Shown here: piece by piece, positions 7,700 to 64,000 of the stretch
How positions within the stretch are numbered: the first letter of the stretch is position 1
Layout of the letters: each line of letters begins with the position of its first letter
Made by a program: the position numbers and the translations under genes
Assembly (NCBI GenBank): GCA_029560585.1
Contig: JAKQKQ010000049.1
Coordinates: 119,523-183,522 of the forward strand
Direction of reading: 5' to 3'
Origin: Verrucomicrobiota bacterium
GTDB taxonomy: Bacteria; Verrucomicrobiota; Verrucomicrobiia; JADLBR01
Length of the DNA stretch: 64,000 bases
The notes under the pieces: generated by a model
What the model saw: only the letters and a program-made list of their open reading frames with translations
Told to the model about the DNA's origin: nothing
Databases searched by the model: none

Positions 7700-7781
7700 G
7701 CGCGCGTGGCGGAACTGGCAGACGCGCTAGATTCAGGTTCTAGTGGGTAACACCGTGGAGGTTCGAGTCCTCTCGCGCGCA
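7700..7781 (+). tRNA. tRNA-Leu (anticodon CAG)
   Basis: A class II tRNA of 82 bases. The acceptor stem is GCGCGCG with CGCGCGC. The anticodon arm is CUAGA-UUCAGGU-UCUAG with CAG in the loop, the extra arm is GGGUAACACC, and the T arm is GGAGG-UUCGAGU-CCUCU. A is the discriminator base. The CCA end is not encoded. It stands alone, not in a tRNA cluster. Confidence 0.95.
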
Positions 7782-14353: not shown

Positions 14354-15436
14354 TCAATCCAGATACTTGCTCCGAACCTGCAGCCAGTCTGGGTTGGAGA
14401 CGGTTTCCACGATCGCTTGATTCAACGGGATACGCAGGGGGCTGCCGACTCTCAAGGCAAAAACATGCAGTGTCTGCCTGTGCGGGACGGGAGTCACGTC
14501 CAAATGGCCCCCGAATGCCTTGGTCACCTCGTGCCGCAAGACCGGCTCGCTGCCGACGCAGACGTCCGCACGACCCCCGGCCACGGCGGCGACCGCCTCC
14601 TGTTCGGAGCCGACGATCTCCACGCGTCCCCCCATGCGCAAGAGCGCGTCCTCAAAGGTCCCCTTGGGCACGGCCACCCGAAGCCGCGGCAGATCGGAAC
14701 GGGTCGGGGCCCTATCGATGATCGCCTCGGCAGTCACGTTGCTGGTGATCGCCGCCGTGAAACTGCTGGTTATGAAAATGCCCATGAAGATCCACACCAG
14801 CGCAAGCGCCCGACCCCGAACGGTGGTCGGGGTGCGCTCACCCACGCCGCTCATCATGGCCGCGGCCCAGTAAATGCCATACAGCGCACCGCGGCTCCGC
14901 CCTTGGCCAAACTCCTCATTCCGCCAATTCCGCTCGATCAAGAGAATGATGCCGCCGACCAGAACCAGGACGCCCAGCATGGACAGCACCACCTTCAGGA
15001 AACCGACCGAAACAAACGTCCGGAAGAGAACACCCAACGTCCCGAGCTTCGCCCGCGGTTTGTATGCGATGCCGATGTTGGACACAAAAAACGGGATCGT
15101 GGAGTCGATGCCGTTCACCAGGGCCGGCGACACAACGACATCGCCGATCACGGCGTCCAGGTCGCCCTGCTGCAATCGTTCGACCGCCGCCTCGTAATCC
15201 AACGGCTGGAGGGTGTAGGACCAGCCGAGCGCGCGCGCCGCACGCTGCCACGCCTCCACAGCCAGGCCGACGTGCCTGCCTTGGCCGCCGGCCATCGCGA
15301 ACGGGGCCGCCTCGACGACCCCGACCTTCAACTCGCCGCCGGGATCGTATCGGGACGTATCAGCGCCACACGCGATCCCCGCGCCGCCCAGGGATATCAC
15401 CAGGAACGCGACGCACGAATGACTGTGAATGGCCAT
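14354..15436 (-). CDS. Prokaryotic ionotropic glutamate receptor-like ion channel
   Basis: 360 residues from the ATG at 15436. A longer frame is rejected because its first part is translated repeat A. The layout is GluR0-like: signal peptide, first half of a solute-binding domain (ELKVGVVEAAPFAM to about 140), membrane helix about 143-167, pore loop 186-201, membrane helix about 208-231, second half of the binding domain to the end. The pore loop reads MMSGVGERTP, aligning with TVGYGDRTP of potassium-selective relatives but with GVGE in place of GYGD. It probably binds an amino acid or other small ligand on the outer face and gates cation flow. It has no obvious partner gene. Confidence 0.82.
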   Translation of the reverse strand: MAIHSHSCVAFLVISLGGAGIACGADTSRYDPGGELKVGVVEAAPFAMAGGQGRHVGLAVEAWQRAARALGWSYTLQPLDYEAAVERLQQGDLDAVIGDVVVSPALVNGIDSTIPFFVSNIGIAYKPRAKLGTLGVLFRTFVSVGFLKVVLSMLGVLVLVGGIILLIERNWRNEEFGQGRSRGALYGIYWAAAMMSGVGERTPTTVRGRALALVWIFMGIFITSSFTAAITSNVTAEAIIDRAPTRSDLPRLRVAVPKGTFEDALLRMGGRVEIVGSEQEAVAAVAGGRADVCVGSEPVLRHEVTKAFGGHLDVTPVPHRQTLHVFALRVGSPLRIPLNQAIVETVSNPDWLQVRSKYLD

Positions 15437-15524
15437 GTCCAAGACAACTACACGACCGCCTCCCCAAAGCGAATAAAGATCCCCTCTGGGCATTCTGGGC
15501 CGCGCATGACAGGTGGCTTTCGCT

Positions 15525-15943: not shown

Positions 15944-17389
15944 TCAGGTCAGCGCCGCCGCATCCGCCCGCTGTTCTCGCCCCGGCGCATCGGCCGCAAT
16001 CTTGGGCAGGCGCACCGTGAACTCGGAGCCCTTCCCCGGCTGGCTGGACAGAGACACCCGACCGTCATGCGCCTCGACGACGGCCTTGACCAGGCTGAGC
16101 CCCAGGCCCAAACCGCGCTGGGATCGGCTCTTGTCGCCCCGGTAGAGACGCTCCCAGATCTTCGCCTGCTCTTCGGGCGGGACACCGGCTCCGGTATCCG
16201 CAAAGGTCACGCATGCCTCATCCCCCTGTTCGGAGGCGGTGATCGCGACGCGCCCGCCGCGCGGCGTGTACTTGATGGCATTGTCGATGAGATTCCCAAA
16301 TACCTGGCGCACGCGCGCCGCATCCACCCACGCGAGGCAGCCCGATGACAGGCGGCCCTCGACCGCCACCCCCTTCTCTTCCGCGACGTACTCGTACAGC
16401 TCGATGACCTCGCGAACGATCCGGCAGAGGTCCGTGGGCTCGCGGCGAAGCCGCATCGTCCCGGCCTCCGCCTCGGCAATATCCATGAGCGTGTTGAGCA
16501 TGCTCAGGACGCGCTCGCTCTCCTCGATGCAGTCGGCCAGCGCCTCGCGCGCGGACTCGGGACCGCCATCTTCCCGCAGCCCCATCTCCGCCGCCCCGCG
16601 CAAACGCGCCAGGGGCGTCCGCAGATCGTGGGCGACATTATCGAGCGACTCTCGCATCGCGCGGATCAGCGCCTGGTTCTTGTCGAGCATCGTGTTGAAA
16701 AGGCGGGATAGCTCGTTCAACTCATCGCCGGAGGGACGGGTCGGGACGCGGGCATCAAGATTCCCGGTGCGTATGATCGATTGGGCCGTGGCAATGATCT
16801 GCCGGACCGGCCGAAACGCCCGGTGGGCAAATCCCGCGCCAAGCACGAGCCCCGCCGCGATGATTGCGAGACTGGCCGGCACGATCGTTCGCCGGAACGG
16901 GCGCCACAGCTCCGCGAGGCTGTTGGTGCTGCGCCCCACCTGGAGCACCGCCCCGTTCGAGATGCGCGCCTGAGCCAGCGCAAAATCTTTCGTCGGATCC
17001 TGCGGAATCCGATTGACCTGGAACTGGACCCATTGGCGCGTCGCCTCGGGCGTCAGTCGGAATGTGCCCCAGGCATTCGGCATGTGGATCACGGTGACCG
17101 CGTTGTAGGGGCTGACCAGATTGACGTAGAAGGACTTCTCGTCGGCCGGATTGTTCTCCTTCTCCGCGCGGGCCTTCAGGGCGTCAAACCCACCCGCCTG
17201 ATACACGGCGACATACTCCTTGAGCCGCGCCAGGATGATCTCTTTCTCCTTCGCCTCCAATTCGTGGGCCACCAGATAGAACACCCCGGTGAAGAGGCCC
17301 GCGGTGCTGAGCGTGAAAATCAGCGCGTACCAGAGGCTGAGCCGATAGACGACGCTGCGCCCCAACCGCCTAATCCGACCGAAGGACAT
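15944..17389 (-). CDS. Two-component sensor histidine kinase, CusS/heavy-metal-sensor-like architecture
   Basis: 481 residues from the ATG at 17389 ([11 protein letters not shown]), which overlaps the end of the regulator gene by 20 bases. Membrane helix about 20-41, a periplasmic domain of about 125 residues, second helix about 168-187, HAMP about 190-240. HisKA reads [10 protein letters not shown] with phospho-acceptor His254. The HATPase domain has [23 protein letters not shown] and [18 protein letters not shown]. Everything needed for autophosphorylation is present. The signal is unknown; the context of Bat and Prc genes suggests an envelope signal rather than a metal. Confidence 0.92.
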
Positions 17390-18038
17390 AGCCAACCCCG
17401 CGAATCGTCTGCAGGCATGTCTTCTCTGGATCCACCTTCGCACGCAGGCGGTGGACCAGCACGTCAATGACACTGGTCTGCGGATCGAAACTGTAGTCGA
17501 AGACGTGCTCCAGAATCATGGTCTTCGTGACGGTGCGCCCCGCGTTGCGCATGAGGTATTCCAGGAGGGAGAACTCGCGCGGCTGGAGCTCGATCTTCCT
17601 GCCCGCACGGGTCACCTCGCGGGTCAGCAGATCCATCGTGATGTCGCCGGCCGCCAGGCGCGTGGGCTCGGACACCTGCGACGCGCGCCGGATCAGCGCC
17701 TGGATCCGCGCCAAGAGTTCGGAAAATGCAAAGGGCTTCGTGACATAGTCGTCGCCGCCCGCCTGTAGCCCGCGCACCCGATCATCGACGCTCGCCTTTG
17801 CGCTGAGGATGATGACGGGCGTCCGGATGCCCGCCGCCCGCATGCGCGCAATGAGCGCCAATCCGTCGAGGCGGGGAAGCATCAGATCCACCACCGCCAC
17901 ATCAAACGGCGTGGTTTCGGCGAGGACGAGCCCCTGTTCGCCATCGCCCGCATGATCCACGGCAAAACCGGCCTGCTTCAGCCCCTTCACGACAAAGGAG
18001 GCGATCTTCAAATCATCCTCGACCACCAAGATGCGCAT
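17370..18038 (-). CDS. OmpR/PhoB-family response regulator
   Basis: 222 residues from the ATG at 18038 (MRILVVEDD), with GGGGTGG just upstream. A GTG two codons earlier is possible. The receiver domain carries the acidic pair in VEDD, phospho-acceptor Asp51 (VVDLMLP) and Lys101 (VTKPF). A winged-helix domain follows, with [29 protein letters not shown] and [14 protein letters not shown]. It forms an operon with the histidine kinase. An array of three 11-base-spaced boxes lies directly upstream and recurs before the Prc protease gene, fitting OmpR-type DNA binding. Confidence 0.94.
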
Positions 18039-18082
18039 ACCCACCCCATCTTGGCGGGACGACGCCGCGGTGCAAGCGAGCC

Positions 18083-18122
18083 TTTCAAAGGTGTAAGCCC
18101 CCGGTAAGGCACCCGCAAACCC
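18083..18122. promoter_or_regulatory. Probable response-regulator operator, copy 1
   Basis: CAAAGGTGTAAGC followed by boxes GTAAG (18093), GTAAG (18104) and GCAAA (18115), each exactly 11 bases apart. It lies between the divergent regulator and MoxR genes. A second copy with the same spacing is at 27162-27198. Confidence 0.6.
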
Positions 18123-18192
18123 ACCATGTTTGATTGCTCACAGAGAGACGGGCTGGCGCCCGTGGAAGACGCAACGCGAAGGAGACACGAAA

Positions 18193-19317
18193 ATGAGCGA
18201 CCAGGAAGTGATGGAACTTGGGAATCGCAACGGCGGGGCGGAATGGGGGCCGGCCACGGAGACGGAGCTCGAAAGGCTGCGCTATCAGGGCGTGCCACCC
18301 AGAAAGGCACAGGCCCAAACCTCGGGCCACAACGCGCGCATCCAGTCGATCAACGCGGCCGTGCGCGACGCTTCCGCATGGGTCCCGCCCTTGCGTCAGG
18401 AGATCGGGCGCGTGATCGTGGGCCAGGTGCACCTGATCGACCGCCTGCTGGTCGGCCTCGTGACCAACGGCCACATCCTGCTGGAGGGCGTGCCGGGCCT
18501 CGCCAAGACGCTCTCCCTCAAGACGCTGGCAGCGGCCGTGCAGCTCCGCTTCCACCGGATCCAGTTCACGCCGGACATGCTGCCGGCCGACATCATCGGG
18601 ACGATGATTTACAACCCGCGGGACGGCGGGTTCCACGTCAAGTGCGGGCCGGTGTTCAGCAACTTCATCCTCGCGGATGAGATCAACCGGGCCCCTGCCA
18701 AAGTGCAGAGCGCCCTCCTGGAGGCCATGCAGGAACACCAGGTGACCATCGGCGACGAGACGCACGCGCTGCCGGAGCCCTTCCTCGTGATGGCGACGCA
18801 AAATCCCCTCGAGCAGGAGGGGACATACCCGTTGCCCGAGGCGCAGGTCGATCGCTTCATGCTCAAGGTGATCGTGGGCTACCCGGATCGAACGGAGGAA
18901 CGCGCGATCCTGGAGGCGATGTCCACGAGTCATCCGGACCTGACGGTGTCACCCGTGGTGTCGGCCGAGGAGATCATGAATTCACGGCAGGTCGTGGACG
19001 CGGTCCACGTGGATGACCGGATCAAGGATTACATCGTGGATCTCGTCTGGGCGACGCGGGCGCCCGCCGAATACGGCCTCGGGCTGGACGGCCACGTGCG
19101 CTATGGCGCATCGCCCCGGGCCACGATCGCGCTCACGCACGCGGCCAAGGCCTGGGCGTTCCTGCACGGCCGGGGCTATGTCACCCCCCAGGACGTGAAA
19201 CATCTTGCTCCCGACGTGCTCCGGCACCGGGTTGCCGTGAGCTACGAGGCGGAGGCCGAAAACATCACACCCGAAGACATCGTGCGAAAGGTGCTCGAGA
19301 CGTTGCCCGTGCCCTAG
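18193..19317 (+). CDS. MoxR-family AAA+ ATPase
   Basis: 374 residues from the ATG at 18193, which follows GAAGGAGA. Walker A is GVPGLAKT (99-106) and Walker B ILADEIN (159-165). NRAPAKVQSALLEAMQE, ATQNPLEQEGTYPLPEAQ and DRFMLKV are diagnostic for MoxR. The 50-odd residues before the core are longer than usual and polar. MoxR ATPases act as chaperones for VWA-domain partners, and the following genes encode exactly those. First gene of a seven-gene operon. Confidence 0.95.
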   Translation: MSDQEVMELGNRNGGAEWGPATETELERLRYQGVPPRKAQAQTSGHNARIQSINAAVRDASAWVPPLRQEIGRVIVGQVHLIDRLLVGLVTNGHILLEGVPGLAKTLSLKTLAAAVQLRFHRIQFTPDMLPADIIGTMIYNPRDGGFHVKCGPVFSNFILADEINRAPAKVQSALLEAMQEHQVTIGDETHALPEPFLVMATQNPLEQEGTYPLPEAQVDRFMLKVIVGYPDRTEERAILEAMSTSHPDLTVSPVVSAEEIMNSRQVVDAVHVDDRIKDYIVDLVWATRAPAEYGLGLDGHVRYGASPRATIALTHAAKAWAFLHGRGYVTPQDVKHLAPDVLRHRVAVSYEAEAENITPEDIVRKVLETLPVP

Positions 19318-19344
19318 ACCTGCAGCCGGCGGAGGGAGGTGCCG

Positions 19345-20256
19345 ATGACACATTCCGAAAAAGTCAAAGAGATCCTGGGGCGGGTGCGGCAGATCGAGAT
19401 ACGCACCCGTCGCCTGGTGAACGATTCCCTGGCCGGGCAGTACCATTCGGTATTCAAGGGACGCGGGATGGACTTCGACGAGGTGCGGGAATACGTGCCG
19501 GGCGACGAGGTGCGCTCGATCGACTGGAACGTGACCGCGCGGGCGGGCCGACCCTACGTCAAGAAACACACCGAGGAGCGGGAGCTCACGATCCTGCTGG
19601 CGGTCGATGTCAGCGCCTCGGGAAATTTCGGTTCAGGGACGCGCAGCAAGAGAGAGGTGGCCGCGGAGCTGGCCAGCGCGCTCGCCTTCTCCGCGATCCG
19701 CAACAGCGATAAGGTGGGCCTCATCCTGTTCTCGGATCAGATCGAGCAGTACATACCGCCCAAGAAGGGCCGCCAGCATGTCCTGCGCGTGATTCGCGAG
19801 GTGCTGTTCTTCGAGCCAGAGCGACGGGGCACGGACATCGCGCGGGCGCTGAATTTCGTCAACCTGGTCACGACGCGCCGGGCAGTCGTTTTCCTGATAT
19901 CCGATTTCCAGGCGGGGGACGGGGACGGGCCGGTGGCCAACCTGCGCCGGGCGCTGGCGCTGGCCAACCGGCGCCACGATCTCGTTGCCATGCATATCCG
20001 CGACCCGCACGAGGCGGGCCTGCCAGAGGTGGGCACGCTGGTCATCGAGGATGCCGAGACGGGGGAAGTGCTGGAGATCGACACGGTCGATGCGCGCGTT
20101 CGCCAGCGCTATGCGGAGATCGCTGGCGCGCGTCTCAACGCACTGCGGCGCGCTTTCCGGGGCGAGGGCGTGGATACCCTGGAACTCGACACCCGGGAAT
20201 CCTTCGTCCCCGCCCTGCTCGGATTTTTCAAGAACCGCGAGCGGAGGATGCGATGA
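19345..20256 (+). CDS. DUF58 family protein (VWA-like fold)
   Basis: 303 residues from the ATG at 19345, six bases after GGAGGGAGG. The DUF58 signature GMDFDEVREYVPGDEVRSIDWNVTAR is followed by PYVKKHTEERE. A VWA-like half with AVDVSASG holds the metal-binding motif. No signal peptide, so cytoplasmic or membrane-attached. It normally works with MoxR and the Bat proteins. Its stop overlaps the next start (ATGA). Confidence 0.93.
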   Translation: MTHSEKVKEILGRVRQIEIRTRRLVNDSLAGQYHSVFKGRGMDFDEVREYVPGDEVRSIDWNVTARAGRPYVKKHTEERELTILLAVDVSASGNFGSGTRSKREVAAELASALAFSAIRNSDKVGLILFSDQIEQYIPPKKGRQHVLRVIREVLFFEPERRGTDIARALNFVNLVTTRRAVVFLISDFQAGDGDGPVANLRRALALANRRHDLVAMHIRDPHEAGLPEVGTLVIEDAETGEVLEIDTVDARVRQRYAEIAGARLNALRRAFRGEGVDTLELDTRESFVPALLGFFKNRERRMR

Positions 20257-20963
20257 GGGCGCGATGGAGAGAGTACGGAATGTTTGCCGCGCTGACGCTC
20301 GGCCTCGTAATGGCGGGGGCCGCAGCGCCGACCAGGGGAGGTCAGGGAGCCGCGCCGGCGACGCCGGGTGCCCCACCCGACCCCAAGCCGATGTCGCCGC
20401 CCGCGGTCACCGCAGCCAGCGAGGACATCCGGGACATCCGCGCACCGAAATCCATGCCCCGGATCTGGCCATGGATCGCCCTCGGAGGCGGGGTGACGGC
20501 CGCCGCCGTGGCCGCATGGCTGGCATGGAGACGGCGGAAACCGGCGCGCGCCCCATCGCCCCGCGACATCGCCCTCGACCGACTGGAGGCCGCGCGCCGC
20601 TGGATGACTCCGGGGCACGTCAGGGATTTCTGTTATGAGGTCTCCGAAATAGTCCGCGGCTATATCGAGCAGCGATTCCAGATTCTGGCGCCGAGGGAGA
20701 CCACCGAGGAATTCCTCCGGGAACTGCTCGGGTCCACCGAATCGACACTGGTTGCGCACCGCGAGGCACTCTCCGACTTCCTTGGGCACTGTGACCTCGC
20801 AAAATACGCGGGCTGGCAGTTCGCCGTCCCCGAGATGGAGTCGATGCACGCGAGCGCCCGCGCATTCGTGACGCTGACCTCGGACGACGGCGGCGCAAAG
20901 GCCCAGTACGAGAGACGGAACGAGGGGGAGCATCGCCCGGCCGCCGTCGGGGAGGCCGCATGA
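20253..20963 (+). CDS. DUF4381-like membrane protein of the Bat operon
   Basis: 236 residues. An N-terminal hydrophobic segment (MFAALTLGLVMAGAAA), a Pro-rich linker, a membrane helix IWPWIALGGGVTAAAVAAWLAW, then a soluble domain with DFCYEVSEIVRGYIEQRFQ and ETTEEFLREL. The arrangement and the position between the DUF58 and BatA genes match the DUF4381 proteins of aerotolerance operons. It overlaps both neighbours by ATGA. Role in the complex not known. Confidence 0.8.
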   Translation: MRARWREYGMFAALTLGLVMAGAAAPTRGGQGAAPATPGAPPDPKPMSPPAVTAASEDIRDIRAPKSMPRIWPWIALGGGVTAAAVAAWLAWRRRKPARAPSPRDIALDRLEAARRWMTPGHVRDFCYEVSEIVRGYIEQRFQILAPRETTEEFLRELLGSTESTLVAHREALSDFLGHCDLAKYAGWQFAVPEMESMHASARAFVTLTSDDGGAKAQYERRNEGEHRPAAVGEAA

Positions 20964-21958
20964 TACGGTTCCTGCAACCCGAACTGCTCTGGTTGCTGCT
21001 CCTGCCCCCCCTGGTGGCCCTGTGGCTTGGCGCGCGCGGCAGGGTCGCCGCCGTGGAATTCTCGAGCACCGAAATCGCACGCGCCGTGGCTCGCGAGACG
21101 AGGGCGCGCCCGGGTCGCTGGATGTCCCTCCTGCGTGTCCTCGTCGCCCAGGCGCTGGTCCTTGGTCTCGCAAGGCCGCAATGGGTCTCGGGCCATAGCG
21201 AGATCCAGGCCAGCGGCATCGACCTCATGCTGGCCGTCGACGTCTCCGGGTCTATGGATGCCCGCGATTTCGAACTCGGCGGCCGGCCAGCGAGCCGCGT
21301 CGACGTGGTCAAATCGGTCGTGGCGGATTTCATCGGCGCCAGGTCGAACGACCGCATCGGCGTGATCGCATTCTCCGCTGCGCCGTACCTGGTCAGCCCT
21401 CTCACGCTAAATCACGACTGGCTCAAGCAGAACCTGGAGCGACTGCACACGGGCATGGTCGAGGATGGCACGGCAATCGGCTCGGCGCTGGCAACGGGCG
21501 TTAACCGCCTGCGGGAACAGCCCGCCAAATCCAAGATCCTCGTGCTGCTCACGGACGGGATGAACAACGCCGGCAAGGTCGCGCCGCAGACCGCCGCAGA
21601 GGCCGCCAAGGCCATGGGGATCAAGGTCTACACCATCGCGGCCGGCACGCGCGGCGAGGCCCCCATCCCGATGAAAGACCAGTTTGGAAACACGCGCATC
21701 ATGATGGCCAAGGTGGACGTGGACGAGGACACCCTGCGCAAGATTGCGGACGAGACGGGGGGAAAGTTCTTCCGCGCCACGGACACGGACTCGCTGAAGA
21801 AGATCTATGCGGAGATCGACCGGATGGAGAAGACGACCCGCTCCGTCCGCAAGTTCGAAAACCACCGCGAGCTGTTCGCGTTCGCCGTCCTGCCGGCCAT
21901 GGCGCTGCTCGCGGTCAACCTGGGTCTGGAGCAAACACGATATAGGCGCTTGCCCTGA
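20960..21958 (+). CDS. batA: BatA-like VWA-domain membrane protein
   Basis: 332 residues. Two N-terminal membrane segments (about 7-24 and 56-73) and one near the C-terminus (LFAFAVLPAMALLAVNLGL) flank a VWA domain with intact MIDAS motif DVSGS (94-98). VEDGTAIGSALATGVNRL and LLTDGMNNAG are standard Bat features. It probably forms part of a membrane complex remodelled by the MoxR ATPase. Symbol assigned by position and domain order. Confidence 0.9.
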   Translation: MIRFLQPELLWLLLLPPLVALWLGARGRVAAVEFSSTEIARAVARETRARPGRWMSLLRVLVAQALVLGLARPQWVSGHSEIQASGIDLMLAVDVSGSMDARDFELGGRPASRVDVVKSVVADFIGARSNDRIGVIAFSAAPYLVSPLTLNHDWLKQNLERLHTGMVEDGTAIGSALATGVNRLREQPAKSKILVLLTDGMNNAGKVAPQTAAEAAKAMGIKVYTIAAGTRGEAPIPMKDQFGNTRIMMAKVDVDEDTLRKIADETGGKFFRATDTDSLKKIYAEIDRMEKTTRSVRKFENHRELFAFAVLPAMALLAVNLGLEQTRYRRLP

Positions 21959-21966
21959 GGATCGTC

Positions 21967-24096
21967 ATGAATTTCTCTGAGCCAAAATGGTTACTCGCGG
22001 GTTCGGCCGCCTGCCTTGCCCTGCTGTGGCTCTACAGGCGAGGCGACGCCCGCCGGATGGCGGATCTGGCAACCTTCGCGGCGGCGAGTCTGATCTACAA
22101 CCTAACGCGCTCCCTGAGCCCGGGGCGGCGGGCCATCAAACGGGGCCTCGTGGCGCTGGCCATCGCGTGTTCTGCCATGGCGCTGGCGAGGCCGCAATGG
22201 GGCTTCGTCTGGGAAGAGACCCACCGCAAGGGACTCGACCTCCTGATCGCCGTGGACACGTCCAAGAGCATGCTCGCCCAAGATGTCCGGCCCGACCGCC
22301 TGACGCGCGCGAAGATGGCCGTCGAGGACCTGCTTGAGAAGCTCGAGGGGGATCGCGTGGGCCTCGTGGCGTTCGCGGGGACCGCATTTCTTCAGTGTCC
22401 GATGACACTTGACTACGACGCGTTCCGACAGTCGCTTGATGCGCTTGACGTGAACGTCATCCCGCGGGGCGGGACGGATATCGCCTCGGCCATCCACGAG
22501 GCGGTTGCAGCGCTGGAAGGAAAGGGCGAGGGCGAGCGCATCCTGGTCCTGCTCACCGATGGTGAGGATCTGGAGGGACGGGCACTGGATGCGGCCCGGG
22601 AGGCGCGTGCGGCCGGCCTGAAGATATTCACGGTCGGCGTCGGCAGCGCGACGGGCGAACTTGTGCCGGTGCCAGATGGTTCGGGGGGCACGACGTTCGC
22701 GCGCGACAAAGACGGCCAGTTCGTGAAATCCCGCCTGGACGAGCGGATGCTCCGCCAGATCGCCGAGGTCACCGGCGGGCAGTACGAACCGCTGGGCGCG
22801 GGCTCGCTCGGGCTCGAAACGATCTATGAGAAGGGCCTGGCACCATTCACGCGCCACGATGTGGCGTCCCGGATGCACAAGGTAGCCATCGAACGGTTCC
22901 AGTGGCCTCTGGCCATCGCCCTGCTCTGCCTGGTGGTCGAGCCATTGATCGGACTGCGCCGCCGCAACGCCGGCCGCATCTTCGCGGCGCGGATGGCCGG
23001 AACGAACGCGCTCATCGCCGCATGGAATCGCTTGGCACGCCCCTCGATGACCATCGCGCTGATGGCCATTTTTATGGGCAGCCGAACGCTCGCGTCCACG
23101 CGGGTGGCAGAGGAGGCATACAAAAAGGGGGACTACGGCCGCGCCGCCGAGGCCTACGGCCAGGCCGCAGCAAAGAACCCGGACCGGCCCGTGTTGCACT
23201 TCAACCAGGGGGCGGCCGAATACAAATCTGGCAACTTCGATGCCGCCGCACAGGCATTCTCAAAGGCGCTGAAAAGCAACGACGTCAAACTGCAGCAGGA
23301 CGACTACTATAATCTGGGAAACGCCAAATTCCGGATCGGCCAACACACGGAAAAATCCGATGCCGGGGCAACCATCAAGTCGTGGGAGGAAGCCGTGCAG
23401 TCCTACGAGACCGCGCTGCAACTCAACCCGGCGGACGCGGACGCCAAATTCAACCACGACCTCGTGAAACGCAAACTCGAGGACATCAAACAGCAACAGC
23501 AAGAGCAGAAGCAACAACAGCAGCAGGACCAAAAGCAGGATCAGCAACAGAATCCCCAGCAGCAACCGCAGCAGCAGGGTCAGAAACAGGACCAGCAGCA
23601 AAGCTCACAGAATCAGAACCAGCAACAGGGCGATAATTCACAACATCAAAACGCCCAGCAGCAACCACAGGACAAATCGGGTGGCGCAACCGCACAAAAT
23701 TCGGGGACCCAACAGGACCAAGACAAGTCGGCCAACGCCCCGCAGGAAGGGGGCCAGGGATCCAGAGAACAACCGCCCAAGAACGACGGCCAACAGGCGG
23801 GAGACGACCGGCGGCCCGATCAGAACGATCACCAACCCGCGCCATCGGCACAGGCCGACGGGGACCAGAAAGACGATCGGGGCATCCGAAAGGGAAAACC
23901 TGTCGCGCGGAACGCGCAGGAACCGGACGGAGATGCGACCAAGGCCGAGGCACCGATGGCACCGGGCGAAATGTCCCGCGAAGAGGCCCGGCAATTGCTC
24001 GATTCCCTCAAAGAGGGTGACCGGAGAATGCCGCTGGTTCCCTACGCCCGAAGCGGGGGTCATGCCCGGGACAACGAGCCCGTGAAAGACTGGTGA
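21967..24096 (+). CDS. BatB-BatC fusion: VWA membrane protein with TPR and Gln-rich tail
   Basis: 709 residues. The first half is BatB: membrane segments near 7-23 and 58-73 and a VWA domain with MIDAS DTSKS (97-101) and LLTDGEDLEG. A membrane stretch near 315-330 and another near 360 lead into a TPR domain (AYKKGDYGRAAEAYGQAAAKNP, then FNQGAAEYKSGNFDAAAQAF), which is BatC. From about 490 to 600 the chain is very rich in Gln and then turns charged, low-complexity. In many operons BatB and BatC are separate; here they are one chain. It starts eight bases after BatA. Confidence 0.9.
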   Translation: MNFSEPKWLLAGSAACLALLWLYRRGDARRMADLATFAAASLIYNLTRSLSPGRRAIKRGLVALAIACSAMALARPQWGFVWEETHRKGLDLLIAVDTSKSMLAQDVRPDRLTRAKMAVEDLLEKLEGDRVGLVAFAGTAFLQCPMTLDYDAFRQSLDALDVNVIPRGGTDIASAIHEAVAALEGKGEGERILVLLTDGEDLEGRALDAAREARAAGLKIFTVGVGSATGELVPVPDGSGGTTFARDKDGQFVKSRLDERMLRQIAEVTGGQYEPLGAGSLGLETIYEKGLAPFTRHDVASRMHKVAIERFQWPLAIALLCLVVEPLIGLRRRNAGRIFAARMAGTNALIAAWNRLARPSMTIALMAIFMGSRTLASTRVAEEAYKKGDYGRAAEAYGQAAAKNPDRPVLHFNQGAAEYKSGNFDAAAQAFSKALKSNDVKLQQDDYYNLGNAKFRIGQHTEKSDAGATIKSWEEAVQSYETALQLNPADADAKFNHDLVKRKLEDIKQQQQEQKQQQQQDQKQDQQQNPQQQPQQQGQKQDQQQSSQNQNQQQGDNSQHQNAQQQPQDKSGGATAQNSGTQQDQDKSANAPQEGGQGSREQPPKNDGQQAGDDRRPDQNDHQPAPSAQADGDQKDDRGIRKGKPVARNAQEPDGDATKAEAPMAPGEMSREEARQLLDSLKEGDRRMPLVPYARSGGHARDNEPVKDW

Positions 24097-24120: not shown

Positions 24121-26130
24121 ATGAGGACGGTCACCGGAGATGATTTCGCTGGCGCGAACATAGGGGATTCGAACAGGGTGGTTTCAGCCCCATCCAGGGA
24201 GGGACGTCGGCCAGCGCTCCAATCCTTCACCAGGCCATTCTTACCCGCGGTAATTCTTGCTGTTCTGATGGGGTGGCGTGCACCCGCGGTCGCCGACGAC
24301 GTCACCGCATCTCTGCAGCCCGCGGAGATCGCCCCGGGAGAAGCCGCGCAGCTCACCGTGACCTCCAACAGGCAGGGCGCGGGCCAGCCGCAGATCGCGG
24401 ATGTGCACGGGCTAGCTTTCCAGCACGTCGGTCAGTCCAGCCAGGTGCAGATCATCAACGGCGCCATGTCGGCAAGCGTGACGCACACCTATCTGGTCAC
24501 GGCCGAGCGCGTCGGCGATTACACGATCCCGGCCATCCGCATCGGCGAAGGCCGCGATGCGGCCGCATCGCAACCGCTCACACTCAAGGTCAGGGACGGA
24601 TCTGCGGGCACCACACCCCAGCGATCTGGCCCCTACGGCACATGGAGGCACACCGGACCACCTCCCCGGCTGGTGCCCCCGACGGCGAACGTCCCCGGTA
24701 ACAGCGCAGATGGCCCCGAAGCGAGCGGTATCGGTTTCCTCCGGATCGATTCGCCAAAGAAGACTCTCTTCGTGGGAGAGACGGTGGCAGTCGAACTGCA
24801 GGCATTCTTCCGGGAGGGCGCGGATCTCCGGGTGGACGGTTTGCCAAAATTTGACAGCGATGCGTTCACCATGAAGAAGTTGGGTGATCAGCCCCTCAGG
24901 CGCAGGGAGCTGGTCAATGGCATCCCGTACACCGTTCTTGCCTGGCCGACGGCGATAACGGCCGTGAAAGCGGGCACCCACGAACTGGCGCTCGAGATCC
25001 CAACCACCGTGACGATCCGCGTCAAGACCCAGAGACCCACATCCCGCATGCGCGGCCTCTTCGGTGATTCCCTCTTCGACCACTTTTTCGACGATCCGTT
25101 CTTCAACGATTTCTTTGGAGCAGCGACACAGAAACAGGTGTCATTGCGCAGCGAACCGATGGCGGTGGACGTCGCGCCCCTCCCGGCGGCGGGGAAACCA
25201 GGGGGATTCGGTGGCGCGGTGGGGCGATTCGCGATCTCCGCGACGGCGACGCCAACGCGGGCGAACTCAGGCGACCCGGTGGCGCTCAAGGTGACCGTGA
25301 CCGGGGAAGGCAACTTCGACCGGGTCAACATCAATGGCGTTGAGAGGGACGGGACTTGGAAGAGCTACAAGCCCACGACCGCCTTCGAGCCGGGCAGCGG
25401 GCCACTTTTGGGCTCGAAGGTGTTCGAGCAGGCACTCGTGCCACTGGAGGGCGGACGACTGGAGATCCCGCCCGTCTCCTTCAGCTACTTCGATCCGGAG
25501 AAGCGCGAGTACGCCACCATCGCAACCCAGCCCATCTCGATCGAGGTGACGCCCTCGGGCAATCCGACGCCGCCCGTGGCGGCAATCCCTGTCGCATCAC
25601 CGAATCCCGCCAGTCCAGCGCCCCATCCGGGCGCCAACGAGATTCTGCCGGATAAGGTGGAGACCGGATGGCCCGTCGTATCGCTGGTGCCGTGGTTTCT
25701 GCAGCCCGATCGAATGGCGGTCGCGCTGGCACCGAGCCTTGGCGCCCTTGGCCTGTGGGCGGGCCTGCTGTGGCACCGCCGTCGGAAGAACGATGTGGGG
25801 CGCCAGATCGAGGCCGAGGCACGGCGGCGCGTCCGCGAAGAGCTGGCCATCATGAGGGGGGCAGCAGAGCGCGGCGCGGCAGTGGAGTTCTTTGCCGCCG
25901 CCCGCGATGCGTTTCGCCACCGGCTCGCCGCGCGCTGGGGAATGCCGGCCTCCGCCATCACGCTCGCCGAGATCGACGCGCGATGCAATGGCCAGGCCTC
26001 GGGGTTCCGAGAGATCTTCGAACTCGCCGACGAGGCAATCTTTGCGGGGCGCACGTTCCCTCCCGAAATGCTGAAATCGTGGCTCCGCAAGGTGGACGAT
26101 GAACTCGACAGATTGGAGACAACGTCATGA
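24121..26130 (+). CDS. batD: BatD-like protein
   Basis: 669 residues with a good ribosome site (GGAAAGGAGG). After a leader it shows the BatD pattern: DDVTASLQPAEIAPGEAAQLTVTSN, then INGAMSASVTHTYLV, a GNFDRVNINGVE repeat, a membrane helix near 535-552 (VALAPSLGALGLWAGLLW), and a cytoplasmic tail ending in the BatE start by an ATGA overlap. The extracytoplasmic part consists of beta-sandwich repeats. Long low-complexity loop SLFDHFFDDPFFNDFFG near 320. A scaffold role in the Bat complex is inferred. Confidence 0.88.
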   Translation: MRTVTGDDFAGANIGDSNRVVSAPSREGRRPALQSFTRPFLPAVILAVLMGWRAPAVADDVTASLQPAEIAPGEAAQLTVTSNRQGAGQPQIADVHGLAFQHVGQSSQVQIINGAMSASVTHTYLVTAERVGDYTIPAIRIGEGRDAAASQPLTLKVRDGSAGTTPQRSGPYGTWRHTGPPPRLVPPTANVPGNSADGPEASGIGFLRIDSPKKTLFVGETVAVELQAFFREGADLRVDGLPKFDSDAFTMKKLGDQPLRRRELVNGIPYTVLAWPTAITAVKAGTHELALEIPTTVTIRVKTQRPTSRMRGLFGDSLFDHFFDDPFFNDFFGAATQKQVSLRSEPMAVDVAPLPAAGKPGGFGGAVGRFAISATATPTRANSGDPVALKVTVTGEGNFDRVNINGVERDGTWKSYKPTTAFEPGSGPLLGSKVFEQALVPLEGGRLEIPPVSFSYFDPEKREYATIATQPISIEVTPSGNPTPPVAAIPVASPNPASPAPHPGANEILPDKVETGWPVVSLVPWFLQPDRMAVALAPSLGALGLWAGLLWHRRRKNDVGRQIEAEARRRVREELAIMRGAAERGAAVEFFAAARDAFRHRLAARWGMPASAITLAEIDARCNGQASGFREIFELADEAIFAGRTFPPEMLKSWLRKVDDELDRLETTS

Positions 26131-26831
26131 AAAGCGAACGCGAAGGACGGCCGCGCGGCGCACGGTGGCTCCGGGCCCTGTTCGTCATTGCGGGATCCCT
26201 GTTGGCCACAGGGGGCGTCATCGCCATGGATGGCGGCACTCCTGCGGTGTCGGGGGCGAAACTTTTCAACGCCGGGAACGCCTGCCTTCGGGAGGGCCGG
26301 ATCGGGGAAGCGATCCTCAACTACGAGCGCGCGTCGTTGCTGGCACCCCAGGATCCAGACATTGCCGCCAACCTGATGTTCGCGCGCTCAAAGGCCGGCC
26401 TGTGGACTGGTGAACCGTCCGCGCTGGAACGACTCGTCCATAAGGCGGCACTCCATGATTGGGCGACGATCGCGGCCACGGCGCTGGCCGTCATGGTGGC
26501 CACCTTGCCTTTCGCGCTCCTGATGCCGCGGGGTCGCCCCCTCTGGCTGGGCGTCCGGGTGACGGCGGGGCTCGTTCTTGCCATCTCGCTTGCTGGCGTC
26601 GCCATGGGGTTGCCCGACCTGCGCGGCGCGGTGACAGTCGCGAAGGAGGCCGTGGCGCATGTGGCACCGGCTCCCGCGGCGGGCACCGTATTCCACCTCC
26701 GGGAAGGTGAGACCGTGCTCATCAGTAGGGCGCTGGGTGACTTCCTGCTGGTCCGCACCCGAGACGGCAGACAGGGCTGGGTGAAAGCCGGAGAGGTCAT
26801 TCCGATCATCCCCTCCCGAAAAGGGGCATGA
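26127..26831 (+). CDS. batE: BatE-like TPR/SH3 protein
   Basis: 234 residues. Signal or membrane segment near 16-33, a short TPR unit (FNAGNACLREGRIGEAILNYERASLLAP), two membrane helices (WATIAATALAVMVATLPFALL and WLGVRVTAGLVLAISLAGVAMGL), then an SH3-like domain (TVFHLREGETVLISRALGDFLLVRTRDGRQGWVKAGEV). Last gene of the operon; BatD and BatE overlap by four bases. Confidence 0.88.
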   Translation: MKSEREGRPRGARWLRALFVIAGSLLATGGVIAMDGGTPAVSGAKLFNAGNACLREGRIGEAILNYERASLLAPQDPDIAANLMFARSKAGLWTGEPSALERLVHKAALHDWATIAATALAVMVATLPFALLMPRGRPLWLGVRVTAGLVLAISLAGVAMGLPDLRGAVTVAKEAVAHVAPAPAAGTVFHLREGETVLISRALGDFLLVRTRDGRQGWVKAGEVIPIIPSRKGA

Positions 26832-26904: not shown

Positions 26905-27134
26905 CTAGCCCGGATATTTCACAGCCTTTCGGCTGTGAAATATCCGGGCTCTGGGAAAACCGCGCCATGAAAGCCATTTATTGGGAGAGGTCGGGCAATG
27001 ACTGGGATCTTTCGTGGGTGCAGAATGTGTTTCGCGGATCGGTGGCCCCAAACCCTCCAAAATCGCATTTTTCAGAGCGCGGTTTTCCTTTGAGCCTGCA
27101 TGTTTCACGCGGGAGCGTGAAACATGCAGGCTAG
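26905..27134. mobile_element. 230-bp twin-hairpin element, copy 1 (CTAG-bounded)
   Basis: It starts CTAGCCCGGATATTTCACAG and ends with the complement of CTAGCCTGCATGTTTCACGC. Each end is followed at once by its own complement, giving two long perfect hairpins with 4-base loops. The middle 140 bases are AT-richer. An inverted copy, about 90% identical, is at 63772-64000. No transposase gene is present, so this is presumably non-autonomous. It lies between the BatE stop and the Prc gene. Confidence 0.85.
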
Positions 27135-27161
27135 GGTCGCCCCCCTGGTTGCCGCAGCTGA

Positions 27162-27198
27162 CAAAGGTGTAAGCTTCCCGAAAGACTACCGAAAGCCC
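27162..27198 (+). promoter_or_regulatory. Probable response-regulator operator, copy 2
   Basis: CAAAGGTGTAAGC followed by GTAAG (27169), GAAAG (27180) and GAAAG (27191), 11 bases apart as in 18083-18122. GATATT (27206-27211) ten bases further could be the -10 box, placing the transcript start next to the ATG at 27219. Confidence 0.6.
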
Positions 27199-27218
27199 AT
27201 GCGGCGATATTAGGCATC

Positions 27219-29459
27219 ATGAACACCACACGAATCTTGAGACCGATCACGGCACTCGGGCTGCTGGCACTCTCCCTCGCCCCGCGCGCGGAATCCGCGG
27301 CGCCACAGGCAAATACAACGCCGGGCGAGGACCAGAGCGAGGCCCGCATATCCGCCCTCACCGCCCGGCTCCTGGACCGATCCCATTTTCTGGGCCAGCG
27401 ATTCGACGATGCGGTCTCCGAAAAATTTTTCGACAACTACCTGAAGGCCCTCGATCGCGGCAGGCTGCACCTGCTCCAATCGGACATTGATGAGTTCGCG
27501 GTCTATCGCGATGCGCTCGATGACCTGACACTGGCGCGGGGCGACACCAGCCCCGCACACAAGATCTACGCGCGATTCGCGGAACGCCTCGCGCAGCGCA
27601 TCGCGTTCGCCAAGGAGGCCCTCGCCAAGAACCACTTCGACTTTTCCGGGGATGACAGCTGGCTCGCGCAGAGGGACAAAGAACCCTGGCCGAAAGACAT
27701 GGCGGTGGCCAAGGAACTCTGGTTCGGCGAACTGCGAAACGAATACCTGCAAGAAAAACTCGCGGGCAAGAAGCCCGGCGAAATCACCCGCACGCTGCAA
27801 CGGCGCTATGATCGGATGGCCCGCACCGCGGAGGAGATGAGCCGCAAGGAGGTCTTCGATGTCTACATGAATGCGCTCGCCCACGCGTATGACCCACACT
27901 CGGACTACATGGGCCCGAGCCAGATGGAAGATTTCGCCATCCAGATGAACCTCAAACTCTGCGGCGTCGGCGCGACCCTCCAGTCCGACGATGGCTACTG
28001 CCGGGTCAAAGAACTGGTTGCCGGCGGACCGGCCGCCCGAAGCGGGCAAATCCACCCAGGCGATCGCATCGTTGCGGTGCGACAAAATCAAGACGAGCCC
28101 ACCGACATCGTGGACATGCCTCTGCACAAGGCCGTGGAACTCATCCGCGGCCCCAAGGGAACGCGTGTCGAGTTAACCCTCATCCCGGCCAACGCCGCGG
28201 ATGATTCCGTGCGCAAGATCGTTCCCATCGTCCGCGACGAGATCAAACTGGAAGAGCAGGAGGCCAAAGCCCGAATCGTGGACATGCCCTGGGACGGCGG
28301 GCGGGTCCGGCTCGGGGTGATCGATCTCCCGGCATTCTACGCGGATATGGACGGACAGCGCGGGACGTCGGGCAAGAGCGCGACGGAGGACGTCGCCCGC
28401 CTGCTCCTGAAACTGAACGCGGAGGGGACCGAGGGCGTGGTCCTCGATCTCCGGAGGAACGGGGGAGGATCCCTCGACGAGGCCATTGGGCTCGCGGGTC
28501 TGTTCATCCCCACGGGACCGGTGGTCCAGACGAAAGATGCGGCGGGCCGCCTGCAGGTGGGCGTCGATAACGATCCGCGCGTCCTGTACACCGGCCCCCT
28601 GGTGGTGCTCACCAGCCGATTGAGCGCATCGGCATCCGAAATCGTCGCCGGCGCACTCCAAGATCTGGGGCGCGCCCTGATCGTAGGCGATCCCTCCACT
28701 TTCGGAAAGGGCACCGTCCAGTCGCTGATCCCGTTGGCCGACCTGATGAAGCGGAATGGCGTGACGCCGGTCGCGGACCCGGGCTCGCTGAAGATGACCA
28801 TCGCAAAATTCTACAGGCCCGGCGGCGCATCGACGCAGTTGCGGGGGGTGGTGCCCGACATCGTCCTGTCTTCACCCACGGACGTGCCCAAAATCGCGGA
28901 ACAGGAGATGGATAATGCAATGGCCTGGGACGCCGTGGCCCCGTCCAGATATGAGCCCCTCAACCTCGTCGGCCCGTATCTGCCCGCGCTGAGGTCCCGG
29001 TCAGCCGTGCGCGTGGAAGCGGACCCACAATTCGCCTGGCTGCGCGAGGATGCGGTCGCCCTTCAGAAGAAAATGACGGATCCCACCGTCTCCCTGAACG
29101 AGGCGAATCGGGCCAAAGAGAAGAAGGCCGCCGAGGAACGGATCGAGGAACACAAGCGGCTGCTGGCGAAACAGCCGCCGCCCGATGAGACGGTGTACGC
29201 GATCAATTTGGCGTCGGCCGGAAAACGCGGCTTGCCCGCGCCAGAACCACGCGCCTCCGAAAAGAAGGATCAGCCCAAGGTCAACGCGGGAGGCGCGGAC
29301 GGCGAAGATTCGCTGGATGCCGAGGCCACCGGCACCGACCCGGTTCTCACGGAGACCAAACACATCCTCGCGGACTATATCGGCATGGCGCGGCACCCCC
29401 TGCCGAAGGATGTCGTGCGCCACGAGCACGGCGAAATCCGCACGGGTTTTGGCGGGTGA
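27219..29459 (+). CDS. S41 family tail-specific protease (Prc/Tsp-like)
   Basis: 746 residues. Signal peptide (ITALGLLALSLAPRAESA), N-terminal helical domain, PDZ domain near 240-330 (CGVGATLQSDDGYCRVKELVAGGPAARSG), then the S41 core. LSASASEI gives catalytic Ser471 and STFGKGTVQ gives Lys497, one residue further apart than in E. coli Prc owing to an extra Ser. The long C-terminal region with EANRAKEKKAAEERIEEHK is the Prc-type tail. It degrades or processes envelope proteins. The ribosome site is weak, and the promoter lies very close, so the mRNA may be nearly leaderless. Confidence 0.93.
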   Translation: MNTTRILRPITALGLLALSLAPRAESAAPQANTTPGEDQSEARISALTARLLDRSHFLGQRFDDAVSEKFFDNYLKALDRGRLHLLQSDIDEFAVYRDALDDLTLARGDTSPAHKIYARFAERLAQRIAFAKEALAKNHFDFSGDDSWLAQRDKEPWPKDMAVAKELWFGELRNEYLQEKLAGKKPGEITRTLQRRYDRMARTAEEMSRKEVFDVYMNALAHAYDPHSDYMGPSQMEDFAIQMNLKLCGVGATLQSDDGYCRVKELVAGGPAARSGQIHPGDRIVAVRQNQDEPTDIVDMPLHKAVELIRGPKGTRVELTLIPANAADDSVRKIVPIVRDEIKLEEQEAKARIVDMPWDGGRVRLGVIDLPAFYADMDGQRGTSGKSATEDVARLLLKLNAEGTEGVVLDLRRNGGGSLDEAIGLAGLFIPTGPVVQTKDAAGRLQVGVDNDPRVLYTGPLVVLTSRLSASASEIVAGALQDLGRALIVGDPSTFGKGTVQSLIPLADLMKRNGVTPVADPGSLKMTIAKFYRPGGASTQLRGVVPDIVLSSPTDVPKIAEQEMDNAMAWDAVAPSRYEPLNLVGPYLPALRSRSAVRVEADPQFAWLREDAVALQKKMTDPTVSLNEANRAKEKKAAEERIEEHKRLLAKQPPPDETVYAINLASAGKRGLPAPEPRASEKKDQPKVNAGGADGEDSLDAEATGTDPVLTETKHILADYIGMARHPLPKDVVRHEHGEIRTGFGG

Positions 29460-63771: not shown

Positions 63772-64000
63772 CTAGCCTGCATGTTTCACGCTTCCGCGTG
63801 AAACATGCAGGCTCAAAGGAAAACCGCGCTCCGAAAAACGCGATTTTGGAGGGTCTGGCGCCACCGATCCGCGAAACACACTCTGCAACCGCGAAAAATC
63901 CCAGTCTTTGCCAGACCTTTCCCAATAAATGGCTCTCATGGCGCGGTTTTCCCAGAGCCCGGAATTTCACAGCCAGCAAGGCTGTGAAATATCCGGGCTA
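63772..64000. mobile_element. Twin-hairpin element, copy 2, inverted (last base beyond the window)
   Basis: It begins CTAGCCTGCATGTTTCACGC and runs to CCGGGCTA at the last base. The next base would complete CTAG. Reverse complement of 26905-27134 with about 20-25 substitutions and one deletion in the second hairpin. Confidence 0.85.

Follow-up and report, generated by a model that had tools for sequence, protein, structure and literature searches.

Which regulator drives the MoxR-Bat genes of a bacterium, and what else does it drive? Operons of the MoxR-Bat type are found widely, and their role has yet to be settled. In the stretch of Verrucomicrobiota DNA analyzed here—64,000 nucleotides, hereafter the window—this question takes a concrete form. 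A minus-strand pair of regulator and kinase genes and a plus-strand moxR-bat row diverge from each other, one operator-like site (operator A) lies between them, and a similar site (operator B) precedes prc, the gene of a tail-specific protease. We consider operators A and B with their predicted −10 elements (18081–18135 and 27157–27211) to be two copies of one conserved module that the adjacent OmpR-family regulator likely binds, thereby activating moxR-bat and prc. Judged from the sequence comparisons described below, the probability of this reading is roughly 0.86.

The row behind operator A starts with a MoxR-type AAA+ ATPase (18193–19317; Pfam AAA_3) and continues on the plus strand with a DUF58 protein (19339–20256; Pfam), a DUF4381-like protein (20253–20963; at 26.1 bits just under the Pfam cut-off of 27.2), and the vWA protein BatA (20960–21958; Pfam BatA and VWA). 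There follow a BatB/BatC fusion of vWA and TPR parts (21967–24096; Pfam)—whose nearest NCBIfam models, Leptospira BatB and BatC, match below their cut-offs—as well as BatD (24121–26130; Pfam BatD) and, at the end of the row, a TPR-like protein (26127–26831; Pfam TPR models, below cut-offs). With AAA_3, DUF58, BatA, VWA, TPR, and BatD all above the Pfam cut-offs in one row, this is a MoxR-Bat operon. The plus-strand gene behind operator B (27219–29459) encodes a Prc/Tsp protease with TSP_NTD, Peptidase_S41, and DUF3340 domains above Pfam cut-offs and a TIGR00225 score of 284.5 against a cut-off of 218.6. On the minus strand, the genes of the response regulator (17370–18038) and of the sensor histidine kinase (15944–17389; Pfam HAMP, HisKA, and HATPase_c) overlap by 20 nt. 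A preliminary description of this DNA had called the regulator OmpR/PhoB-type; its receiver domain (Response_reg) and its winged-helix domain (Trans_reg_C), with Pfam scores of 94.2 and 83.7 above the cut-offs, agree with this, and the protein is the predicted binder of both operators. Downstream of the kinase, the minus-strand gene at 14354–15437 looks by eye like a fusion of a periplasmic binding protein and an ion channel, similar to glutamate receptors.

The most obvious likeness between the two sites is CAAAGGTGTAAGC, whose only exact copies in the whole window lie at 18086–18098 and 27162–27174. Around it, half-sites recur with a period of 11 bp, as seen in the sequence and in a matrix of 54 foreign sites. 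Operator A (18081–18119, plus strand) consists of CCTTTC (18081–18086), TGTAAG (18092–18097), GGTAAG (18103–18108), and CGCAAA (18114–18119), and operator B (27157–27195, plus strand) of GCTGAC (27157–27162)—a poor first box—TGTAAG (27168–27173), CGAAAG (27179–27184), and CGAAAG (27190–27195). The boxes that had been described at 0, +11, and +22 from 18093 and 27169 are present at both places, including the third one; the count of three fell short, as a fourth box lies 11 bp upstream at 18081–18086 and 27157–27162. The neighboring GATATT (27206–27211, plus strand), with the ATG 7 nt on, is the predicted −10 element of prc and is in register with the −10 conserved among the foreign sites. Its counterpart at operator A had been overlooked: a predicted extended −10 of moxR (18127–18135, plus strand) with TG at 18127–18128 and TTGATT at 18130–18135, likewise in the foreign register. 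The distance from the half-sites to the −10 element is equal in operators A and B, and the earlier idea that the boxes replace a −35 element fits the fixed distance of the −10 throughout the conserved module.

A genome scan for the motif had been proposed as a check, and it yields two sites only, before moxR and before prc. The three-box pattern with up to 3 mismatches matches operators A and B alone in the 7.06-Mb genome. When the consensus is relaxed to take in the relatives' sites, the same two are its only 0-mismatch matches, and at 2 mismatches its 7 further genome matches equal the 7 of the reversed control. An earlier, looser three-box pattern had given 2 exact and 2 one-mismatch matches versus 18 in the reversed control. 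With a 56-column matrix built from 54 sites of other organisms, the window being left out, operator A scores 31.4 bits, operator B 32.8 bits, and the third-best place in the window 0.2 bits; the best scores of 200 dinucleotide shuffles average −5.8, with a maximum of 11.2. With a shorter, 33-column matrix operator A (17.1) stands only just above the highest score among 20 shuffles (16.2), and hence it rests also on box 0 and the −10 element.

Does the module accompany this regulator in other organisms? Close regulators (E <= 1e-92) are encoded in 36 of the 384 sampled genomes of the class, own included, with 63–80% identity in the 35 others. In the genus-mate (G002) the best regulator is 49% identical, and the motif is absent at up to 3 mismatches. 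A search of wider genome contigs with a regulator alignment found at least 80 loci, labelled mostly Verrucomicrobiota and in some cases Deltaproteobacteria, Dadabacteria, Gammaproteobacteria, or Spirochaetes. In most relatives' loci a related kinase gene follows the regulator, and in 21 of 29 a conserved same-strand ORF precedes it; two members of this ORF cluster (L102 and L014) are HtrA/Do-type proteases by Pfam. Immediately in front of the relatives' regulator genes there is no good motif, which first seemed to be counter-evidence, until the site turned up ahead of htrA, with which the row begins. All 45 loci with htrA directly preceding the regulator—that is, htrA-regulator-kinase operons—carry the module before htrA, and in all 45 the regulator is an orthologue of that in the window. 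An iterated matrix, trained partly on the htrA sites it scored, gives these sites 26 to 40 bits versus a shuffled maximum of 4.7.

These 45 sites, together with those of L137, L071, L073, L158, L175 (two sites), L179, L182, and L186, make up the 54 foreign sites. Their alignment describes the module as box 0 (CCTTWC), box 1 (TGTAAK), box 2 (GMAAG), and box 3 (GNMAG) with a period of 11 bp, followed by the −10. Columns that had played no part in finding the sites are conserved as well. One turn upstream of the earlier matrix they read CCTTWCA, the counts out of 54 sites being 53 for T at −7, 52 for T at −6, and 52 for C at −4, with weaker C columns at −9 (36/54) and −8 (37/54). At the other end, A at +41 (39/54) and T at +45 (51/54), the latter being the last base, mark the −10, which in one L175 site is TATAAT itself. 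Tandem half-sites at about one DNA turn, which characterize OmpR/PhoB operators, are thus shared by the 54 foreign sites and operators A and B.

The architecture bears on a different reading, in which an alternative (ECF) sigma factor recognizes the module as its promoter, GTGTAAGC forming the −35 and CGNAA the −10, and the period of 11 is incidental. GGTGTAAGC followed by CGNAA 14–17 bases on does occur at the two sites only in the genome, and the shape of this spacing resembles that of ECF promoters. However, the middle box is conserved like the outer ones (A at +16 and at +17 in 54/54), a fourth box lies 11 bp upstream, a sigma70-like −10 sits at +40 to +45 in fixed register, and the linked regulator is of the OmpR type and no sigma factor. 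Tried with the spaced pattern, the ECF promoter was set aside; we regard it as very improbable.

The link between module and regulator can be put in numbers. The exact consensus has 45 matches in 39 of the 384 class genomes and none in the reversed control. It occurs in 26 of the 36 regulator-bearing genomes (both counts including the window's own) versus 13 of the 348 others (Fisher p = 9e-23), an association that is not fully independent, since some training sites might come from the same species as these genomes and the consensus was drawn with knowledge of operator A. Matrix matches beside regulator, htrA, or moxR add five regulator-bearing genomes (G092, G244, G307, G312, and G324), and exact and matrix matches together cover 31 of the 36; in the remaining ones (G055, G068, G147, G233, and G332) the matrix found no site in the stretches scanned. 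At least 3 of the 13 other genomes encode a more distant regulator (G088 with 66%, G148 with 61%, and G252 with 57% identity). The genes behind the 45 consensus matches are htrA in 27 cases—21 by direct match, five by ORF cluster (G019, G049, G140, G163, and G225), and one by distance only (G080)—and moxR in 7, the window included; 2 matches lie inside Bat rows, 1 precedes a regulator operon, and the remaining 8 stand before other or unknown genes, two of these matches (G124 and G272) being weak. The highest-identity regulator loci without a link to htrA (L109, L110, L111, and G332, the last perhaps on the same contig as L110) gave no site in the stretches scanned. The four matches of the three-box pattern in other genomes (L006–L009) lie inside long ORFs and were dropped as chance matches in coding DNA, and L191 (17.0 bits with the 33-column matrix), which overlaps predicted coding ORFs, was left uncounted.

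For moxR itself, 46 regulator- or site-bearing genomes were searched, giving 64 matches, of which 30 loci were scanned. The module precedes moxR in 9 of these 30, at 26–60 bits (G244, G339, G130, G229, G088, G083, G211, G148, and G234), and the MoxR proteins of these nine loci are 65–72% identical to that of the window; 20 of the 30 loci score 4.4 or less, and one has no upstream DNA. In 4 of the 9 module-bearing genomes the regulator-kinase pair adjoins the moxR-bat genes, be it divergent, at the row end, or beside the row. G244 (L314) repeats the layout of the window with the module between a divergent regulator-kinase pair and moxR-bat. In G088, moxR, DUF58, DUF4381, BatA, BatBC, BatD, TPR, regulator, and kinase run in one direction; the gene order of G130 is like this as far as matched, and in G148 the regulator-kinase pair stands beside the Bat row and faces it. 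G083 has no regulator within 38 kb around moxR. Without recourse to the window, the layouts in other genomes thus connect the operator with the regulator and with moxR-bat. Three further loci (L184, L187, and L188, labelled Gammaproteobacteria and Verrucomicrobia) have a regulator-kinase pair close to Bat genes but no module within the 12.7 kb scanned.

The comparative data strongly support, at the level of sequence, a putative envelope regulon of moxR-bat and prc. The single regulon that had been suggested earlier—Bat operon, kinase/regulator pair, and protease—is supported for moxR-bat by the 45/45 htrA operons and the 9/30 moxR loci. It is in this genome alone that prc figures as a putative target, and since operator A points toward moxR, autoregulation of the regulator-kinase pair would be at most a possibility here.

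HtrA and Prc are both periplasmic quality-control proteases. None of 58 other prc loci scanned—a part of a larger set of prc matches, three of them with short upstream DNA—has the module, and the prc search in wider genome contigs gave no match. Operator A might therefore be the real operator and operator B a likeness in the prc leader that arose by chance or has decayed, with prc no target; besides this absence elsewhere, a dispersed two-hairpin repeat that ends 24 bases upstream of operator B speaks for this. Such a coincidence is nevertheless distinctly unlikely: the score of operator B exceeds the shuffle maximum by far (32.8 versus 11.2 bits), its −10 is in register, and the site, of which the genome has no third copy, lies outside the repeat. 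The own htrA orthologue (G000:C313:16610-18043) has no module upstream, and with the prc copy found only here, the outputs have seemingly been exchanged. With five genomes of the window's order covered, own included, this would be explained most simply by a handover of the output in this lineage, from HtrA to MoxR-Bat and Prc. The dispersed repeat itself is 226 bp long and bounded by hairpins with the arms GTGAAATATCCGGGCT and GTGAAACATGCAGGCT; its copies lie at 26907–27132 (plus strand) and 63774–63999 (minus strand), and a similar hairpin precedes the own htrA (L198).

How might the module work? Envelope stress would prompt the kinase to raise the level of phosphorylated regulator, two dimers of which might fill the four half-sites. 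The proximal dimer would then cover the −35 region and recruit RNA polymerase in the manner of PhoB-type promoters. Counted from a −10 that ends at −7, the approximate spans would be −28 to −23 for box 3, −39 to −34 for box 2, −50 to −45 for box 1, and −61 to −56 for box 0. The moxR transcript is predicted to start about 51 nt before the ATG, with GGAG at 18181–18184, and that of prc one base before the ATG, which would make it a leaderless message; some relatives' moxR genes also begin soon after the −10. Ancestrally the system probably acted on HtrA, whose gene shared an operon with the regulator; the output would have become MoxR-Bat in several lineages, and MoxR-Bat plus Prc in this one, where htrA is left without a site. 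For comparison, the Pho box of E. coli is described as two 7-bp repeats with a 4-bp spacer (PMC3333781).

The overlap of the half-sites with the −35 region would also suit a regulator that binds operators A and B and represses moxR-bat and prc; OmpR-family regulators can act as repressors. By eye, however, there is no −35 hexamer, and the −10 elements are weak and mostly extended (T at +37 in 35 and G at +38 in 37 of the 54 sites), as in activator-dependent promoters. In addition, the relatives' regulator operon lies behind the same site, an arrangement usual for positive feedback. Repression is hence hard to credit, and activation is the reading that we carry on with.

The regulator might itself reflect the variant form of its sites. 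Across 90 regulators, positions 187–193, 197–199, and 201 of the recognition helix are identical in 88–90, and positions 194–196 and 200 are variable. Residue 189 (codon 17472–17474) is Asn in the other 89 of the 90 and Ser in the window, which perhaps matches the GGTGTAAGC variant of the window's own sites. A family name is harder to give. The best NCBIfam matches of the two proteins are the heavy-metal models TIGR01386 and TIGR01387, with scores of 218.9 and 228 below the curated cut-offs of 292.55 and 279.2, respectively; CusSR/CopSR are hence the nearest NCBIfam systems, but the predicted targets of the present system are proteases and MoxR-Bat, not metal efflux. The kinase also stays far below the Legionella CpxA model NF045900, with 126.8 bits against a cut-off of 800; no other CpxA model ranks among the top 25 of its 87 matches. 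In Foldseek its predicted structure (pLDDT 85.4, pTM 0.55) aligns for the most part with the cytoplasmic core of known kinases, and these matches name no sensor type.

In its wiring the system is, as far as sequence features tell, one that works like CpxAR, CssRS, or CiaRH, yet it scores below the CpxA and heavy-metal models. In enterobacteria, CpxAR acts on degP and further envelope genes through the direct repeat GTAAA-N5-GTAAA. The likeness comprises an OmpR-type regulator, direct repeats with GTAA cores, and a periplasmic HtrA/DegP protease as output; the period of 11, the four half-sites, the fixed −10, and the MoxR-Bat and Prc targets are unlike CpxAR. To our knowledge, no MoxR-Bat output is known for CssRS or CiaRH. 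Both are two-component systems that govern HtrA under secretion or envelope stress, a trait shared with the system described here, but in Gram-positive hosts (PMC5157995, PMC10197876). CenKR of Rhodobacter is likewise an OmpR-type envelope regulator with direct repeats, for which cross-species site conservation was used as an argument; it differs by its TGA-N8-TGA repeat and by Tol-Pal among its targets (PMC9275681). RavA-ViaA of Vibrio cholerae, a MoxR AAA+ protein with a vWA partner, resembles the present case in its genetic tie to envelope-stress two-component systems, here Cpx; it belongs to another MoxR family, and the tie consists of deletion phenotypes and no shared operator (PMC10848872).

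The closest precedent is PhoP of Riemerella anatipestifer, an OmpR-type regulator that binds the moxR promoter (by DAP-seq and shift assay) and activates moxR, batA, and batC; a role of the bat genes in oxygen and H2O2 tolerance is proposed (PMC9603813). With this in print, it is already known that a two-component system can control moxR-bat. The precedent also lends weight to an oxidative or oxygen-related signal—oxidative stress being one proposed role of MoxR-Bat there—behind an otherwise real regulon, in place of misfolded envelope proteins. Still, the same module stands before htrA in most relatives and before prc here, and the Riemerella motif TTTAACA differs from the module, so that we think this signal unlikely, albeit worth keeping in mind. 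PhoPR differs further in its host, one of the Bacteroidota, and the paper does not mention HtrA, nor do the passages considered here mention Prc or a four-box module (PMC9603813). Among the open-access papers listed, we found no description of the four-box operator or of a joint HtrA/MoxR-Bat/Prc regulon; on GTAAT-type repeats they include one paper, which concerns VicR.

Taken as an envelope regulon, the module suggests—tentatively, at a little under even odds—an old two-component system that is spread across several phyla with interchangeable outputs: for the majority of lineages HtrA, for others MoxR-Bat, and in the present case MoxR-Bat plus Prc. As the conserved operator would place MoxR-Bat under a regulator that otherwise drives HtrA, Bat is predicted to deal with misfolded or damaged proteins of the envelope. 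If true, MoxR-Bat would be an envelope protein quality-control machine that replaces or aids periplasmic proteases. The motif is sharp enough for listing regulon members, in Verrucomicrobiota as well as in a number of genomes that carry the labels Deltaproteobacteria, Dadabacteria, or Spirochaetes.

Some further copies of the module deserve mention. At about 4560–4620 of L234 (G252), two modules stand back to back with overlapping upstream ends, one directed toward htrA and the other toward the regulator-kinase pair. Another copy precedes an unannotated gene (L240:1121-1231, L227:1499-1610, and L241), which has a probable GTG start at L240:1231; this arrangement is conserved in G130, G229, and G088 (family f32). 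A site of 37.7 bits in the 33-column matrix (L237:1342, G049) lies before a phosphoglycerate dehydrogenase gene; the next gene encodes a prolyl isomerase of the PPIC type, which might be a target with a foldase role in the envelope. In the window itself, the sole Rfam match above the gathering score is a tRNA gene at 7700–7781 on the plus strand.
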